From Methanosarcina horonobensis HB-1 = JCM 15518 (GTDB lineage: Archaea > Halobacteriota > Methanosarcinia > Methanosarcinales > Methanosarcinaceae), in contig NZ_CP009516.1 in assembly GCF_000970285.1 (NCBI RefSeq), forward strand, positions 1,033,036-1,097,035: a stretch of DNA of 64,000 bases, read 5' to 3'. A program made the position numbers and the translations under genes. The notes below the pieces were generated by a model. It ran no database searches. It saw nothing but the letters and a program-made list of their open reading frames with translations, and was not told the origin of the DNA. Below are positions 1 to 13,462 of the stretch, piece after piece (position 1 is the stretch's first letter; every line of letters starts with the position of its first letter).

Positions 1-1641
1 GCCTTCCGTCTCAAACGAATAAGCCGGCAAGGGAAGTTTCTTTGCCTGACAATATTCCTGCAGGGCAAAAATTGGGTCTTTTGACGTGTTAATTGTCATT
101 TCTCCCTTACTGGCCGGCAGGTCTGCTACCTTGGTCTTCAAGTCAGGAGTGGGTAAGCCCAGAATAGTTGCGAGCAGGTCTACGGATGCCCGCTGCATTG
201 CGCCTTTCTTTGTCAGGTCCTCATATGCAGCGGACTGGTACTCTCTGTCACCGACTCTAATGGCGCTCAGGGCGGTGAATACCGGTATGTTGCCTCGGGC
301 AGTTTCGGTCACTTCATATATGGGCATCTGCCAACCTGGTATATGTTGTGCGATATCGAAGATTGAGACTGCGTGATGAGGCGCAGTTGCTAACTCTTCC
401 AGCACTGCTCTTTTAAGCTCAGTCCATCTTTCGCCATCAGGGGCCTGCAGGAGTACCAGCCCTGTGCAGATGATCGGCAACTTGCCAAGGCGTTTCTGGA
501 AAACATCGCGGTAAGCCTCGGGGCAGTCTCCCCCTTTGCGGATCAGAAATTTGGTGATGCGCTCGAAATCTGTATCGCTTGCATTCTCAATCCTGTTCCT
601 CAGGATGGCAAACTCAGCTTCTTTATACGCCTTTTCTTTCATGTACTCGCTTTTAGCCTTGTCGTTTTCAAGGTGCTTCAGGTTAATGTGCGATGCAATT
701 GCCTGAATCTCTTCTTTAGAATGGGGCAAGGGCTCGTTCCGGATGTATGCCCTGATCTGCTGGTGGTTAACGAGATCAGCATACCTTCGGATGGGCGAGG
801 TGAAATGGGTATACGCTCCGAGGTTCAGTCCGAAATGGCCCAGGATGACGGGGCCATATTCCGCTCTATTGAGCATCATGTACGCGGTATGCCTGACTGT
901 AGCTATGTTTACCTCAGGGATGACAGCTATGCTTTCGAGCAGCTTCAGCAAGTCCTCCCGCTCAGGGGTGGCGCTCCGGGCTGTATGGTTACGGAAAAGG
1001 ATAGGAATGTCATTTTTGACCGCATACTCTGCTACGGCCATGTTAGCGAGAATCATCAGCTCTTGGATGATAACGTAGCCGATAGTATCTTCCCTGCGTT
1101 TCAGTTGCCGTAGCGATCCTTCTTCACTCGTCACCAGCCCCTTCCCCAAATCGTAGAATGCCAGCGCTCCGTGGTTACGGCGCTGCATCAAAAGACCGTT
1201 CGCTAACTGGCTTGCGAGCTTGATGAGAGCGTGCTGCGTGTGCTCCTTATCAGAGAGAATGCCGGGGACGTCAGAGAAAGCTATCTTTGCTTCGCTGGTC
1301 ATCGCAGTCCGCGAAATCTTTATTTCACGGATTGACAGATCCATGCCGAGGATGATATCCACAACGAGGACATACTTCGACTCTCCCGGCCATAGGGAAA
1401 ACTTCCCGTCTGCGAGCCGCCGGGGCAGCATCGGGCTGTTACCGTTTGCATAATACCTGGTCTCTACCCGGGATATCGCAAGTTGATCAAGCTCTGAATG
1501 CTTGTGAATTACTTTTGCGACGTCCGTGATCATGACCACGACGTGCCAGCCGCCGTTTTCCATGGTTTCCACCCAGATTGCATCATCCATGTCCCGGGTT
1601 GTCACGTCATCGATCGTAATGCCTCTGAGCATATCTGGCAT
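1..1641 (-). CDS. RNB-family (RNase II/R-like) exoribonuclease with a dsRNA-binding domain, 3' end outside the window
   Basis: Minus-strand frame open from the ATG at 1641 to the left edge (547 codons, no stop seen). The protein begins almost directly with the RNB catalytic domain: GITIDDVTTRDMDDAI carries the four metal-binding Asp residues (Asp11, 17, 19, 20), and FTSPIRRYADLVNHQ is the conserved late RNB motif. RNB enzymes degrade RNA 3' to 5'. No cold-shock domain precedes the catalytic core. The last ~25 visible residues (DPIFALQEYCQAKKLPLPAY) match helix 1 of a double-stranded RNA-binding domain, where RNase II/R would carry S1. An in-frame ATG at 1686 would add 15 residues; neither start has a clear ribosome site. 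The family call is firm; the dsRNA-binding call rests on a partial domain. Confidence 0.88.
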   Translation of the reverse strand, partial: MPDMLRGITIDDVTTRDMDDAIWVETMENGGWHVVVMITDVAKVIHKHSELDQLAISRVETRYYANGNSPMLPRRLADGKFSLWPGESKYVLVVDIILGMDLSIREIKISRTAMTSEAKIAFSDVPGILSDKEHTQHALIKLASQLANGLLMQRRNHGALAFYDLGKGLVTSEEGSLRQLKRREDTIGYVIIQELMILANMAVAEYAVKNDIPILFRNHTARSATPEREDLLKLLESIAVIPEVNIATVRHTAYMMLNRAEYGPVILGHFGLNLGAYTHFTSPIRRYADLVNHQQIRAYIRNEPLPHSKEEIQAIASHINLKHLENDKAKSEYMKEKAYKEAEFAILRNRIENASDTDFERITKFLIRKGGDCPEAYRDVFQKRLGKLPIICTGLVLLQAPDGERWTELKRAVLEELATAPHHAVSIFDIAQHIPGWQMPIYEVTETARGNIPVFTALSAIRVGDREYQSAAYEDLTKKGAMQRASVDLLATILGLPTPDLKTKVADLPASKGEMTINTSKDPIFALQEYCQAKKLPLPAYSFETEG

Positions 1642-8016: not shown

Positions 8017-8370
8017 TTGACTGCACAAAAAATAAAAAATCTGGTCAGAAAATTCAATAATTCTATTGAAAGAAATAAGGACTATCAGGCTTATTCAGAC
8101 TTTAAAGAAGGAGTGAATAAAGGCCTGGATATAGCCAGATATACCTTCGAAGAAAATGTAGAAAAATTCTCTCTATTGGGTCTGGATGAAGATCAGGCTC
8201 AAAAAGTAAAGAGCTTGCAGGACAATTTTAATCGTCTTTTAGATGGGATTATCCTGCCAAAAAAGCCAAACTGCTCTGAAGAGCGTCTGGATGGTATATA
8301 TACCGGATTTGAGAAGTCGAAAAAAGTATTTGGAGATTTCATACAGGAGGCTTTTCCTCTGGAAAATTAA
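8017..8370 (+). CDS. Small helical protein of a three-member tandem family, paralog 1
   Basis: 117 residues, TTG start with GGAAGCGATGAG upstream. No known domain. It shares a layout with the proteins at 9304 and 10017: a basic N-terminal helix (QKIKNLVRKFNNSIER), then AYSDFKEGVNKGLDIA, TFEENVEKF, a spacer, SLQDNFNRL, KPNCSEERLDGIYTGFEKSK and an acidic end. All predicted helix, soluble, no membrane segment. The genes are 0.6-0.9 kb apart and not obviously co-transcribed. It is the most diverged of the three (VVKEKPNYS is replaced by LPKKPNCS). Function unknown. Confidence 0.75.
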   Translation: MTAQKIKNLVRKFNNSIERNKDYQAYSDFKEGVNKGLDIARYTFEENVEKFSLLGLDEDQAQKVKSLQDNFNRLLDGIILPKKPNCSEERLDGIYTGFEKSKKVFGDFIQEAFPLEN

Positions 8371-9303: not shown

Positions 9304-9654
9304 TTGGATCAGCAAAAAATCAATAAGACAGTTAGAAGATTTGGTGATCTAATCGAGAGGAGCAAGGATGGACGAGCGTACTCGGATTTTAAAGAAGGGG
9401 TAAACAAAGGTTTACAAATTGCTAAAAGTACTTTTAATGAAAATGCGGAAAAATTTCTCTCACCTGATGTGGACGGAGGCCACGTTATAGAGATAGAGAG
9501 CCATCAGAATAGATTTAACCTGATTATAGATTCAATCGTTGTTAAAGAAAAACCAAATTATTCTCGGGATTATCTGGATGGAATATACGAGGGATTCGAA
9601 AGATCCAAAGAATTGTTTGGAGAATTCATAAAAGAATTCTATAACCCTGATTGA
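9304..9654 (+). CDS. Small helical protein of a three-member tandem family, paralog 2
   Basis: 116 residues, TTG start with GAAGGGG 6-7 bases upstream. Very similar to paralog 3: DQQKINKTVRRFGDLIER, AYSDFKEGVNKGLQIAKST, then IIDSIVVKEKPNYS, LDGIYEGFERSKELFGEF and a short acidic tail ending in NPD. Predicted helical and soluble, unknown function. The TTG start is supported because all three paralogs align from exactly this codon. The long spacers on both sides hint that each copy has its own promoter. Confidence 0.78.
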   Translation: MDQQKINKTVRRFGDLIERSKDGRAYSDFKEGVNKGLQIAKSTFNENAEKFLSPDVDGGHVIEIESHQNRFNLIIDSIVVKEKPNYSRDYLDGIYEGFERSKELFGEFIKEFYNPD

Positions 9655-10016
9655 AGCTCAAAGCTCCGTTTTAATAATACCCGGCTTCAGTCGGTGTTAT
9701 CTCTCGATATTGTTCCTTTATATTGTTTATATGAGTAAATTTCAAATTGTAACTATTTGGTAAAGAATTCGCAAAAAGATACATTAAAATCAGGGAGCAA
9801 AAAAATCATAAATGCGATGTTTTCAGAGACTCTTTAATCGGGTTCTCTGTTGTAATGATAACTTTACAAAACAACGACTGAAACCAGAATAAGCATAAAT
9901 AATAGTAAACAAATACCCAATTAAGACTCATTAATATAAGGATTTTATTAATACAGGGATTTGAGTTTTTCTTACTTATTTTTTAATTTTCTGTTTTTTG
10001 CAGGGAGGTGGCAAAT
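9655..10016. other. Intergenic with one CRISPR-like element
   Basis: No gene. Contains repeat copy 4 at 9767-9803 and an A/T-rich promoter-like stretch before paralog 3. Confidence 0.5.
9767..9803 (+). repeat. CRISPR-repeat-like element, copy 4
   Basis: Begins ATTCGCAAAAAGATACATTA and continues AAATCAGGG, in register with copy 1. Confidence 0.5.
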
Positions 10017-10373
10017 TTGAATCAGCAAAGAATTAAAAAGACAGTTAGAAAGTTTAGCGATTTAATTGAGAGAAATAAGGATAGACGAGCTTACTCTGAT
10101 TATAAAGAAGGGATAAATGAAGGTCTGGAGATGGCTAAAGATACTTTTGAAGAGAATGTAGAAAAGTTTCTTTCTTCAGTCCCGGACGAAGATCCTGTTG
10201 CAAAGGTACAGAGCCTTCAGGATAGATTTAATCTTATTATAGATACGATTGTTGTTAAAGAAAAACCAAATTATTCTCCAGACCATCTAGATGGAATATA
10301 TGAAGGATTTGAAAAGTCCAAAAAGATATTTGGAGAATGTTTAAGAGAATATTATTACCCTGACATAGAGTAA
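10017..10373 (+). CDS. Small helical protein of a three-member tandem family, paralog 3
   Basis: 118 residues from the TTG at 10017. An in-frame GTG at 10008 is less likely as the start because it lies inside the strong ribosome site GGGAGGTG (10003-10010), and because the TTG aligns with the TTG starts of both paralogs. The sequence repeats the family pattern: NQQRIKKTVRKFSDLIER, AYSDYKEGINEGLEMAKDT, SLQDRFNLIIDTIVVKEK, LDGIYEGFEKSKKIFGE, ending in PDIE. Soluble and helical, no recognised domain. This copy has the best translation signals of the three. Confidence 0.78.
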   Translation: MNQQRIKKTVRKFSDLIERNKDRRAYSDYKEGINEGLEMAKDTFEENVEKFLSSVPDEDPVAKVQSLQDRFNLIIDTIVVKEKPNYSPDHLDGIYEGFEKSKKIFGECLREYYYPDIE

Positions 10374-11224: not shown

Positions 11225-13462
11225 ATGGCGCCGATTGAAACAACGGAAAGGCTGGGGCGCAGCCTGGGTTTTTTCTCAACTTTTGCAATAGGCACCGGGA
11301 CAATGATAGGGGCAGGAATATTCCTTCTTCCCGGAATTGCCATGGCGAATGCAGGTTCAGGAGCAATAATTTCGTTTTTGCTTGGCGGGCTGATTTCCAT
11401 AGCCACAGCCATCAGTATGACAGAGCTGGCAACAGGCATGCCTTCAGCAGGCGGGAGCTATTACTATATCAGCAGAACTATGGGAGCCGCATTCGGTGCA
11501 GTAATCGGTCTCGGCTCCTGGCTGGCACTGGTGTTTAAAGGCACTTTTGCCCTAATAGGACTTGCAGAGTACTCTCAGGTCTTTTATCCCCTGCCGATCT
11601 ATCTGGTAGCGGCTGTTACAGGAGTGCTCCTTTTAATAATTAATTACCGCGGGGCAAAAAGCAGTGGTTCCCTGCAAAATATTATCGTCGTGATTTTGCT
11701 GGTAATACTGGTTATATTCATTGGCAAAGTATCTTTCATGGTTAAGCCGGATAATTTCTTCCCGGTAGCTTCACATGGGATAACCTCGATAATCACTACA
11801 ACAGGGATCATTTTCATCTCTTATCTTGGACTGGCAGAAGCTTCTGCTGTCGCTGAAGAGGTGAAAAATCCGTCAAAGAACTTGCCGAGGGCTTTCATCG
11901 CTTCAGCGGTTATAGTAACCCTGTTCTATGTAGGCATAATGGCTGTAGTCGTAGGTTTCTCAGGTTCTGAAGGGACTGCATCAACAGTCACTCCACTGGC
12001 AGATATTGCAGGCTTGATTGCAGGCGATTCCGGGAAACTATTTATTGCCTTTGCCGCCCTGCTTGCAACGCTTTCAACAGCTAATGGAGCCATACTGTCA
12101 TCTTCCAGGTTCCCTTTCGCAATGAGCAGAGACGCACTGATGCCAGAATGGTTTGTCATGATCCATAAAAAATATGAGACTCCTTACAATGCCATCCTGG
12201 TTACAGGGTCTGTAATGGTCGCGCTTCTGTTTTTGTTTGATATAGAGCAGCTGGCAAGACTGGGCGGAGCTTTTAACATTTTGATATTCATTCTGCTGAA
12301 TGCGGCAGTAATTATCCTGAGGAAACGTACTCTGCCCGGATATGAACCGACGTTTCGCGATCCCTTTTTCCCTTTCACACAGATCTTCGGGGTGGTGGGG
12401 AGCTTACTGCTGTTGCCTCTTCTTGGCGGTTTACCTTTATTGTTTTCCGTCTTGATGATATTTGCCGGAGCAGCCTGGTACATGTTCTATGGAAAAGAGA
12501 AGGCTATGCCAGCATACAACCTCTTTGACCTGCTGGAGAATAATGTCGAGAGAGTGAGCCCTGAACCAAAGCCTGTTGGCAGGGTACTTGTACCGGTTTC
12601 AAATCCTGGACATGAACGGGACCTTCTTAAACTGGCAGACCTCCTGGGCAATGAGATTATCTGCCTGCATGTAATCGAAGTTCCGGGTCAGACCAGCTTG
12701 CAGATAGCTCAGGAAGCCTACCATGAGAAACAGATAGAGATGGACTGCCGTTTTCAGGAAGACTTTGAGCAGTATCCTGCAAAGTTCGGAAATAAAAGGG
12801 AGTACATTGTTGCTTTCGACCACAGGATCTCAAACTCAATTATTGAACAGGCTGAAATAGAGAATGCTGATATAATTATAATGGGCTGGCCCGGATCAAA
12901 GAGGTTCCAGTACTCTTTCGGAGATGTAACAAACGATGTTCTCCTGTCCTCGAAAAGCCAGATTGCTCTCTTAAAAGGACACCTGCCTGACAATATTAAA
13001 AGGATCCTTGTAGCCTATAATGGAAGAGAAAATTCCGTATACGGGCTTTCTCTGGCAAAAAAGATTGCTACAAATACAGGCGCTTCAATGAAAATAATTA
13101 GTATTGTCAGCCCTGACGAAGACCAGGACAGGAAGGCAAAAATTGCTGAAGAACTTTCAGAGCTGGTCAAAAAGATTCCTTCGATACCTGTAAGTTTCAA
13201 ACTGCTCGAAAGGTATTCTGTCGAGGACGCCATACTTGAGGTTTCAAACGGTTATGACCTGACAATTATCGGGGACTCGAGCGAGAGATTCAAGATCTCT
13301 TTACTTGGGACTCTCTCGCAGAGGATTGCCAGGCACTCCAGAAAACCGGTAATGATAGTTAAAAAATCAAAACCGATCTCAAAAGAAAGCCTGAACTACC
13401 TGCTGAAAAAGTCTGCTAAAAAGGTCTATGAAAGGATCAGGAAAGAGAAAGACAGGGCCTAA
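11225..13462 (+). CDS. APC-family amino acid permease fused to two universal stress protein domains
   Basis: 745 residues. Residues ~15-430 are an amino acid-polyamine-organocation permease with about 12 membrane spans; GTGTMIGAGIFLLPG is the TM1 substrate-binding motif and YLGLAEASAVAEEVKNP the cytoplasmic loop motif. Residues ~451-585 and ~590-725 are two universal stress protein (USP) domains, starting GRVLVPVSN and KRILVAYNG. USP domains bind nucleotides and probably tune transport in the cytoplasm. In the second domain, GDSSERFKISLLGTLSQRI takes the place of the usual ATP-binding G-x2-G-x9-G(S/T) motif. ATG with GGGG nearby. This fusion type is known in archaea and bacteria. Confidence 0.9.
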   Translation: MAPIETTERLGRSLGFFSTFAIGTGTMIGAGIFLLPGIAMANAGSGAIISFLLGGLISIATAISMTELATGMPSAGGSYYYISRTMGAAFGAVIGLGSWLALVFKGTFALIGLAEYSQVFYPLPIYLVAAVTGVLLLIINYRGAKSSGSLQNIIVVILLVILVIFIGKVSFMVKPDNFFPVASHGITSIITTTGIIFISYLGLAEASAVAEEVKNPSKNLPRAFIASAVIVTLFYVGIMAVVVGFSGSEGTASTVTPLADIAGLIAGDSGKLFIAFAALLATLSTANGAILSSSRFPFAMSRDALMPEWFVMIHKKYETPYNAILVTGSVMVALLFLFDIEQLARLGGAFNILIFILLNAAVIILRKRTLPGYEPTFRDPFFPFTQIFGVVGSLLLLPLLGGLPLLFSVLMIFAGAAWYMFYGKEKAMPAYNLFDLLENNVERVSPEPKPVGRVLVPVSNPGHERDLLKLADLLGNEIICLHVIEVPGQTSLQIAQEAYHEKQIEMDCRFQEDFEQYPAKFGNKREYIVAFDHRISNSIIEQAEIENADIIIMGWPGSKRFQYSFGDVTNDVLLSSKSQIALLKGHLPDNIKRILVAYNGRENSVYGLSLAKKIATNTGASMKIISIVSPDEDQDRKAKIAEELSELVKKIPSIPVSFKLLERYSVEDAILEVSNGYDLTIIGDSSERFKISLLGTLSQRIARHSRKPVMIVKKSKPISKESLNYLLKKSAKKVYERIRKEKDRA

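Follow-up and report, generated by a model that had tools for sequence, protein, structure and literature searches.

The minus-strand gene at the left edge of the window probably encodes a 3'-5' RNB exoribonuclease in which dsRNA-binding domains (dsRBDs) replace the usual OB folds and would steer the enzyme to structured or duplex RNA, the gene having been acquired once by Methanosarcina. The window is the whole stretch of DNA that was analysed, 64,000 nucleotides of Methanosarcina horonobensis HB-1 (G000:C1:1033036-1097035 of a 5.02-Mb single-contig genome). Two points go beyond the first-pass annotation of this DNA: the protein has two dsRBDs, and its family is found mainly on bacterial plasmids and is not an archaeal peculiarity. 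The best reading is a distinct RNB clade that is carried by mobile elements, chiefly large plasmids of bacteria, and that forms a mobile, so far overlooked branch of a familiar enzyme family.

In the window, the RNB protein is represented by a minus-strand ORF (1-1641) that is cut by the left edge, its reading frame being open up to 1686. Past the edge, the same genome holds 135 further bases, which add 44 residues and give the C-terminus ...SFETEGSTNKPTFTCTCTFGSSTSTGQAGKKQRAKRLAARAMIYTLVSGS*. The start codon was set at the ATG at 1641 because relatives begin there; with the alternative in-frame ATG at 1686, the protein would be 15 residues longer. The gene and its parts are the following, in window positions unless the contig is named.

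G000:C1:1032901-1034676, minus strand: predicted RNB-dsRBD exoribonuclease gene, 591 aa at full length
1..1641, minus strand: part of the gene in the window, residues 1-547 of 591 (ORF list, extension)
G000:C1:1032901-1033035, minus strand: last 44 codons and stop, left of the window
739..1620, minus strand: RNB catalytic domain, residues 8-301 (PF00773, E 3.7e-67; nearest solved structures RNase R 8cdv/5xgu)
1582..1611, minus strand: predicted metal-binding aspartates D11, D17, D19 and D20 (alignment to E. coli RNase R)
784..789, minus strand: R285-R286 of the SPIRR motif (alignment; R286 corresponds to R572 of E. coli RNase R)
385..738, minus strand: long helix (309-347) and four-helix spacer (356-419) (AlphaFold2; no Pfam match, no known family)
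160..378, minus strand: dsRBD1, residues 422-494 (dsrm 22.4 bits on the fragment; predicted alpha-beta-beta-beta-alpha)
82..150, minus strand: flexible linker, residues 498-520 (504-513 with pLDDT < 50; dN/dS 0.49)
1..81, minus strand: dsRBD2, visible residues 521-547 (Pfam dsrm 1.1e-16 for the full protein; remainder to 590 outside the window)

The full-length protein bears out most of what had been proposed from the cut ORF. The RNB assignment is confirmed by the PF00773 match, and the C-terminal dsRBD, first suspected from one helix and a loop, is recovered by Pfam in the extended protein as a dsrm match at residues 526-584, in two stretches (61.6 bits, where the cut-off is 23). The window fragment alone gives dsrm at 432-491, just below the threshold (E 1.8e-4). 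As the first-pass annotation had also suggested, the accessory domains usual in this family are missing: neither a cold-shock domain (CSD) nor an S1 domain is matched in the full protein by Pfam at E <= 1, and the models described below show helices and two dsRBDs after the RNB domain. There is no room for N-terminal domains either, as RNB begins at residue 8 and no long ORF lies upstream. The protein scores 214 bits with TIGR02063 (RNase R), below the family cut-off of 598, and 132 bits with TIGR02062, below the cut-off of 642, and so falls outside RNase R and RNase II proper. It is a member of the RNB (RNase II/R) superfamily without the CSDs and S1 of these enzymes.

Structure prediction places the domains in a consistent order. 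An AlphaFold2 model of an 87%-identical Methanosarcina homologue, built on a 17-row alignment (mean pLDDT 87.4), runs from RNB through the helix 309-347, four helices at 356-419, dsRBD1 and a disordered linker to dsRBD2. In this model, dsRBD1 consists of helix 422-433, strands 441-475 and helix 478-494, and dsRBD2, which takes the canonical fold, of helix 523-534, strands 540-569 and helix 572-590. A separate model of a member from a viral contig (L110), about 40% identical, has the identical layout (pLDDT 87.8), and the alpha-beta-beta-beta-alpha fold is thus predicted twice per protein in both a close homologue and a distant relative. No OB fold follows RNB in either model, and the mutual placement of the domains is uncertain (pTM 0.65). 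The "conserved spacer" noted earlier after RNB stands as a four-helix region, but the same stretch also holds dsRBD1, the more degenerate of the two dsRBDs. Foldseek searches against the PDB matched the catalytic part to RNase R (E 2.5e-23), RNase II, Dis3L2 and Rrp44, and the C-terminus to the tandem-dsRBD proteins TRBP, Loqs, DRB4 and NF90.

A tblastn search found relatives of this protein, about 28-34% identical over most of its length, on large plasmids from Actinomycetota, Pseudomonadota and Acaryochloris. The hosts are Streptomyces, Mycolicibacterium, Rhodococcus, Gordonia, Dietzia and Frondihabitans, as well as Pseudomonas, Variovorax, Methylorubrum extorquens AM1 and Acaryochloris, and a Mycolicibacterium query alone reached at least 80% coverage in 51 plasmid records. 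The plasmid members that were read out combine RNB with one to three dsRBDs, with dsrm E-values down to 4e-28 among relatives, and, where annotated at all, bear only names such as 'RNB domain-containing ribonuclease' or 'ribonuclease R'. Four plasmids of Acaryochloris marina MBIC10699 have a copy each, and in Acaryochloris strain 'Moss Beach' five plasmids each have their own. A TrwC relaxase was found on the Acaryochloris plasmid only, among 13 records tried. Two Rhodococcus plasmid copies appear interrupted, one with an IS3 transposase inside (NZ_CP096039.1, 190552-193731; the other is NZ_CP118328.1, 73629-76609). The Acaryochloris marina plasmid pREC3 encodes, in addition to its RNB-dsRBD gene, a stand-alone dsRBD protein of 157 aa (L194:231-704, dsrm 2e-5), and a second ORF similar to it lies at W04:C1:198402-198686.

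The survey of bacterial chromosomes covered Pseudomonadota. None of the 398 Pseudomonadota genomes, with at most three candidates scored per genome, yielded a full-length member at E <= 1e-70, and the single match proved to be a plain RNB. A profile scan detected eleven members on viral contigs of 48-536 kb, with 26-41% identity to the Methanosarcina proteins, and Pfam matches to RNB and dsrm extend to such viral-contig members; scans of viral contigs with archaeal sequences alone, and two with single sequences, found no member. Three of the eleven contigs have a terminase-like ORF (Terminase_6N match), and the remaining ones may be pieces of plasmid or chromosome. In annotated phages, coverage of the protein did not exceed 55% in any record.

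A maximum-likelihood tree of the RNB part, with 27 dsRBD members and 16 plain RNBs including the haloarchaeal type, separates the two groups on a branch with support of 100/99, all 27 dsRBD members lying on one side. The fusion of RNB with dsRBDs therefore arose once in this sample. Methanosarcina forms a single clade (100/100) amid viral-contig and plasmid members. The simplest reading of this tree is that Methanosarcina acquired the gene from a bacterial mobile element. The branch nesting Methanosarcina among bacterial members reaches only 90/93, below the strong level of the tree, which makes the direction of transfer an inference.

Within the archaea surveyed, the combination is restricted to one genus. 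Of 31 Methanosarcina genomes, 11 have the gene (10 of the 24 good ones). RNB is present in 163 of 393 Halobacteriota genomes, and within the family and order in Methanosarcina only. A dsrm match was obtained in 75 of the 393, chiefly on ORFs of RNase III size, and dsRBDs are thus not as rare in archaea, at least nearby, as the first-pass annotation had assumed. ORFs long enough and suitably placed to carry both RNB and dsrm were confined to Methanosarcina across the 393 genomes; a 411-aa ORF considered as an exception reads as RNase III, judged by eye rather than by a family search. This RNase III-like protein with a dsRBD is encoded in one Methanosarcina genome (G010, L193:1090-2325, minus strand), which has the RNB-dsRBD gene too. 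In M. horonobensis itself, no dsrm match exists besides the gene described here.

In nine Methanosarcina genomes, no more than about 5 kb separates the gene from a common cupin gene at one chromosomal site, and the gene is therefore an old resident of that site. In eight Methanosarcina genomes that have the cupin and lack the gene, no gene remnants lie near the cupin. The patchy presence of the gene would reflect later losses within the genus; those eight genomes may have lost it or may never have acquired it. Across bacterial, viral-contig and archaeal loci, no neighbour genes are shared except between closely related Acaryochloris copies, apart from a small number of matches that are unrelated. 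Several other features of the neighbourhood were observed. Three closely spaced paralogues of about 117 aa without a Pfam family lie in the window (8017-8370, 9304-9654 and 10008-10373, plus strand), and other Methanosarcina loci have relatives of them close to the RNB gene. Universal-stress-protein domains are fused to an amino-acid permease at 11225-13462 (plus strand). A few kb downstream of the gene, one Methanosarcina locus has CRISPR-like repeat translations (L002:6900-9641) and another has cas-like genes (L006:6278-9618); neither such repeats nor cas-like genes were seen beside the gene in M. horonobensis.

The distribution raises the possibility of a dedicated role on mobile elements, in which sense-antisense or other duplex RNA would be cleared for the control of plasmid genes, copy number or incompatibility, or as a counter to RNA-based host defence. 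Large plasmids of three phyla carry the gene, two Acaryochloris strains keep a copy on each of four or five co-resident plasmids, and one Acaryochloris plasmid has the stand-alone dsRBD ORF as well. Yet in Methanosarcina the site is fixed on the chromosome with no sign of a plasmid, no conserved partner gene points to a pathway, and PADLOC models of known defence systems matched none of five members. We regard this role as possible but rather less than probable; it refines rather than excludes the explanation of a structure-directed exoribonuclease. A similarly tentative and broader version is that of a cross-domain family of mobile-element exoribonucleases that destroy dsRNA, with which plasmids and possibly large phages would remove antisense or defence duplexes, and which Methanosarcina would have domesticated for dsRNA decay.

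The dsRBDs themselves could have another purpose. If they served dimerisation or partner recruitment, the enzyme would degrade ordinary single-stranded RNA, as RNase II does. The state of dsRBD1 in Methanosarcina is compatible with this, as it reads KKGAM where the consensus is KKxAK and has lost some of the usual RNA-contact residues. Furthermore, the best matches of dsRBD2 to profiles of solved structures include TRBP, R2D2 and Loquacious, and some dsRBDs of these proteins bind proteins. Against it stands the conservation of dsRBD2: K572 and A575 are kept in all 26 members having the domain, very diverged ones included, K576 is kept in most, and several members have a GPxH-type loop. Methanosarcina proteins show KQRAK with a G(S/P)TN loop, and several relatives SKKEAK with GPDH. 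The basic motif of helix 2, on which the first-pass annotation had made its dsRBD depend, is present beyond the window edge as K572-Q-R-A-K576, with Q for the second K and an extra K571. Selection tells the same story. As the ratio of median dN to median dS among ten Methanosarcina genes, dN/dS is 0.16 overall, 0.16 in RNB, 0.12 in the helical spacer and 0.22 in dsRBD1, with its highest value in the linker and its lowest, 0.105, in dsRBD2. These ratios indicate purifying selection on the gene. No part of the Methanosarcina protein is under tighter constraint than dsRBD2, and this speaks for a functional importance of the domain. We consider a purely protein-binding role for the dsRBDs unlikely.

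The catalytic residues are preserved as well. D11, D17, D19 and D20 align to D272, D278, D280 and D281 of E. coli RNase R, and R286 to R572, whose numbering and catalytic roles we take to be established. The four aspartates are kept in 26 of 26 members covering that part, and the arginine is invariant in 27 of 27. All tested catalytic residues are therefore in place, and the protein is expected to be a catalytically competent nuclease. An RNA-binding protein without nuclease activity has precedents in the RNB pseudonucleases Zam and Ssd1 (PMC9145284, PMC12320835); with all five residues kept in every covering member, it is a very improbable description of this family. Chance resemblance or a gene-fusion artefact of one assembly can be dismissed, as the architecture recurs independently in 11 genomes of Methanosarcina and in numerous records from bacteria, with dsrm E-values as low as those given above.

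For the preferred explanation, a structure-directed exoribonuclease, we propose the following mechanism. Two C-terminal dsRBDs would take the place of the usual OB-fold domains (two CSDs and one S1). The dsRBDs, chiefly the terminal one, would dock on a duplex or hairpin and keep the substrate close to the RNB channel, and the enzyme would digest the strand with a free 3' end, moving into the structure. Without CSDs, and held on duplexes by its dsRBDs, such an RNB core would be expected to prefer structured or double-stranded RNA. To invade duplexes, RNase R requires a 3' overhang of single-stranded RNA as well as a tri-helix wedge, and the CSDs have been discussed as a first obstacle for duplex RNA. 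The RNase R of Haloferax, whose accessory domains are rudimentary, can break down structured RNA at the temperature at which the organism grows (PMC12320835). The M. horonobensis genome encodes two exosome subunits of the RNase PH type; the RNB-dsRBD enzyme is therefore an additional one and would have an accessory role in RNA decay alongside the exosome.

Among known systems, RNase R (TIGR02063; E. coli 5xgu, B. subtilis 8cdu/8cdv) is the nearest in solved structure, shares the RNB domain and catalytic residues, and itself degrades structured RNA. In contrast to it, the protein described here lacks the HTH, CSD1, CSD2, S1 and K/R tail, and has a helical spacer and two dsRBDs. The minimal RNase R of Haloferax volcanii and RNase II of D. 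radiodurans likewise combine RNB with few accessory domains, but are without a dsRBD, and haloarchaeal-type RNBs of the same phylum cluster with plain RNBs, apart from the Methanosarcina clade. RNase III and Dicer also join a ribonuclease domain to C-terminal dsRBDs; their catalytic fold and chemistry are unrelated, being those of an endonuclease, whereas a 3'-5' exonuclease is predicted here. Dis3L2 and Rrp44, RNB exonucleases that act on structured RNA and match in fold by Foldseek, use CSDs and S1 (and PIN in Rrp44) and no dsRBD. The cyanobacterial Zam is similar in being a divergent RNB clade with an accessory role, but it has CSDs and S1 while its active site is degenerate (PMC9145284), which is the reverse of the RNB-dsRBD family. 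A family review covers the deviant architectures of Dss1, Ssd1 and minimal enzymes and leaves dsRBDs unmentioned (PMC12320835), and we found no description of the RNB and dsRBD architecture in the open-access literature.

Current annotation hides this architecture. RNB enzymes have been described as built around OB-fold RNA-binding domains, and the dsRBD clade offers a test of the role of accessory domains in the invasion of structure. In both bacteria and archaea, its dsRBDs are joined to a predicted 3'-5' exonuclease instead of to RNase III. With its repeated presence on plasmids, the control of plasmids, or counter-defence against the host, by decay of dsRNA becomes directly testable.
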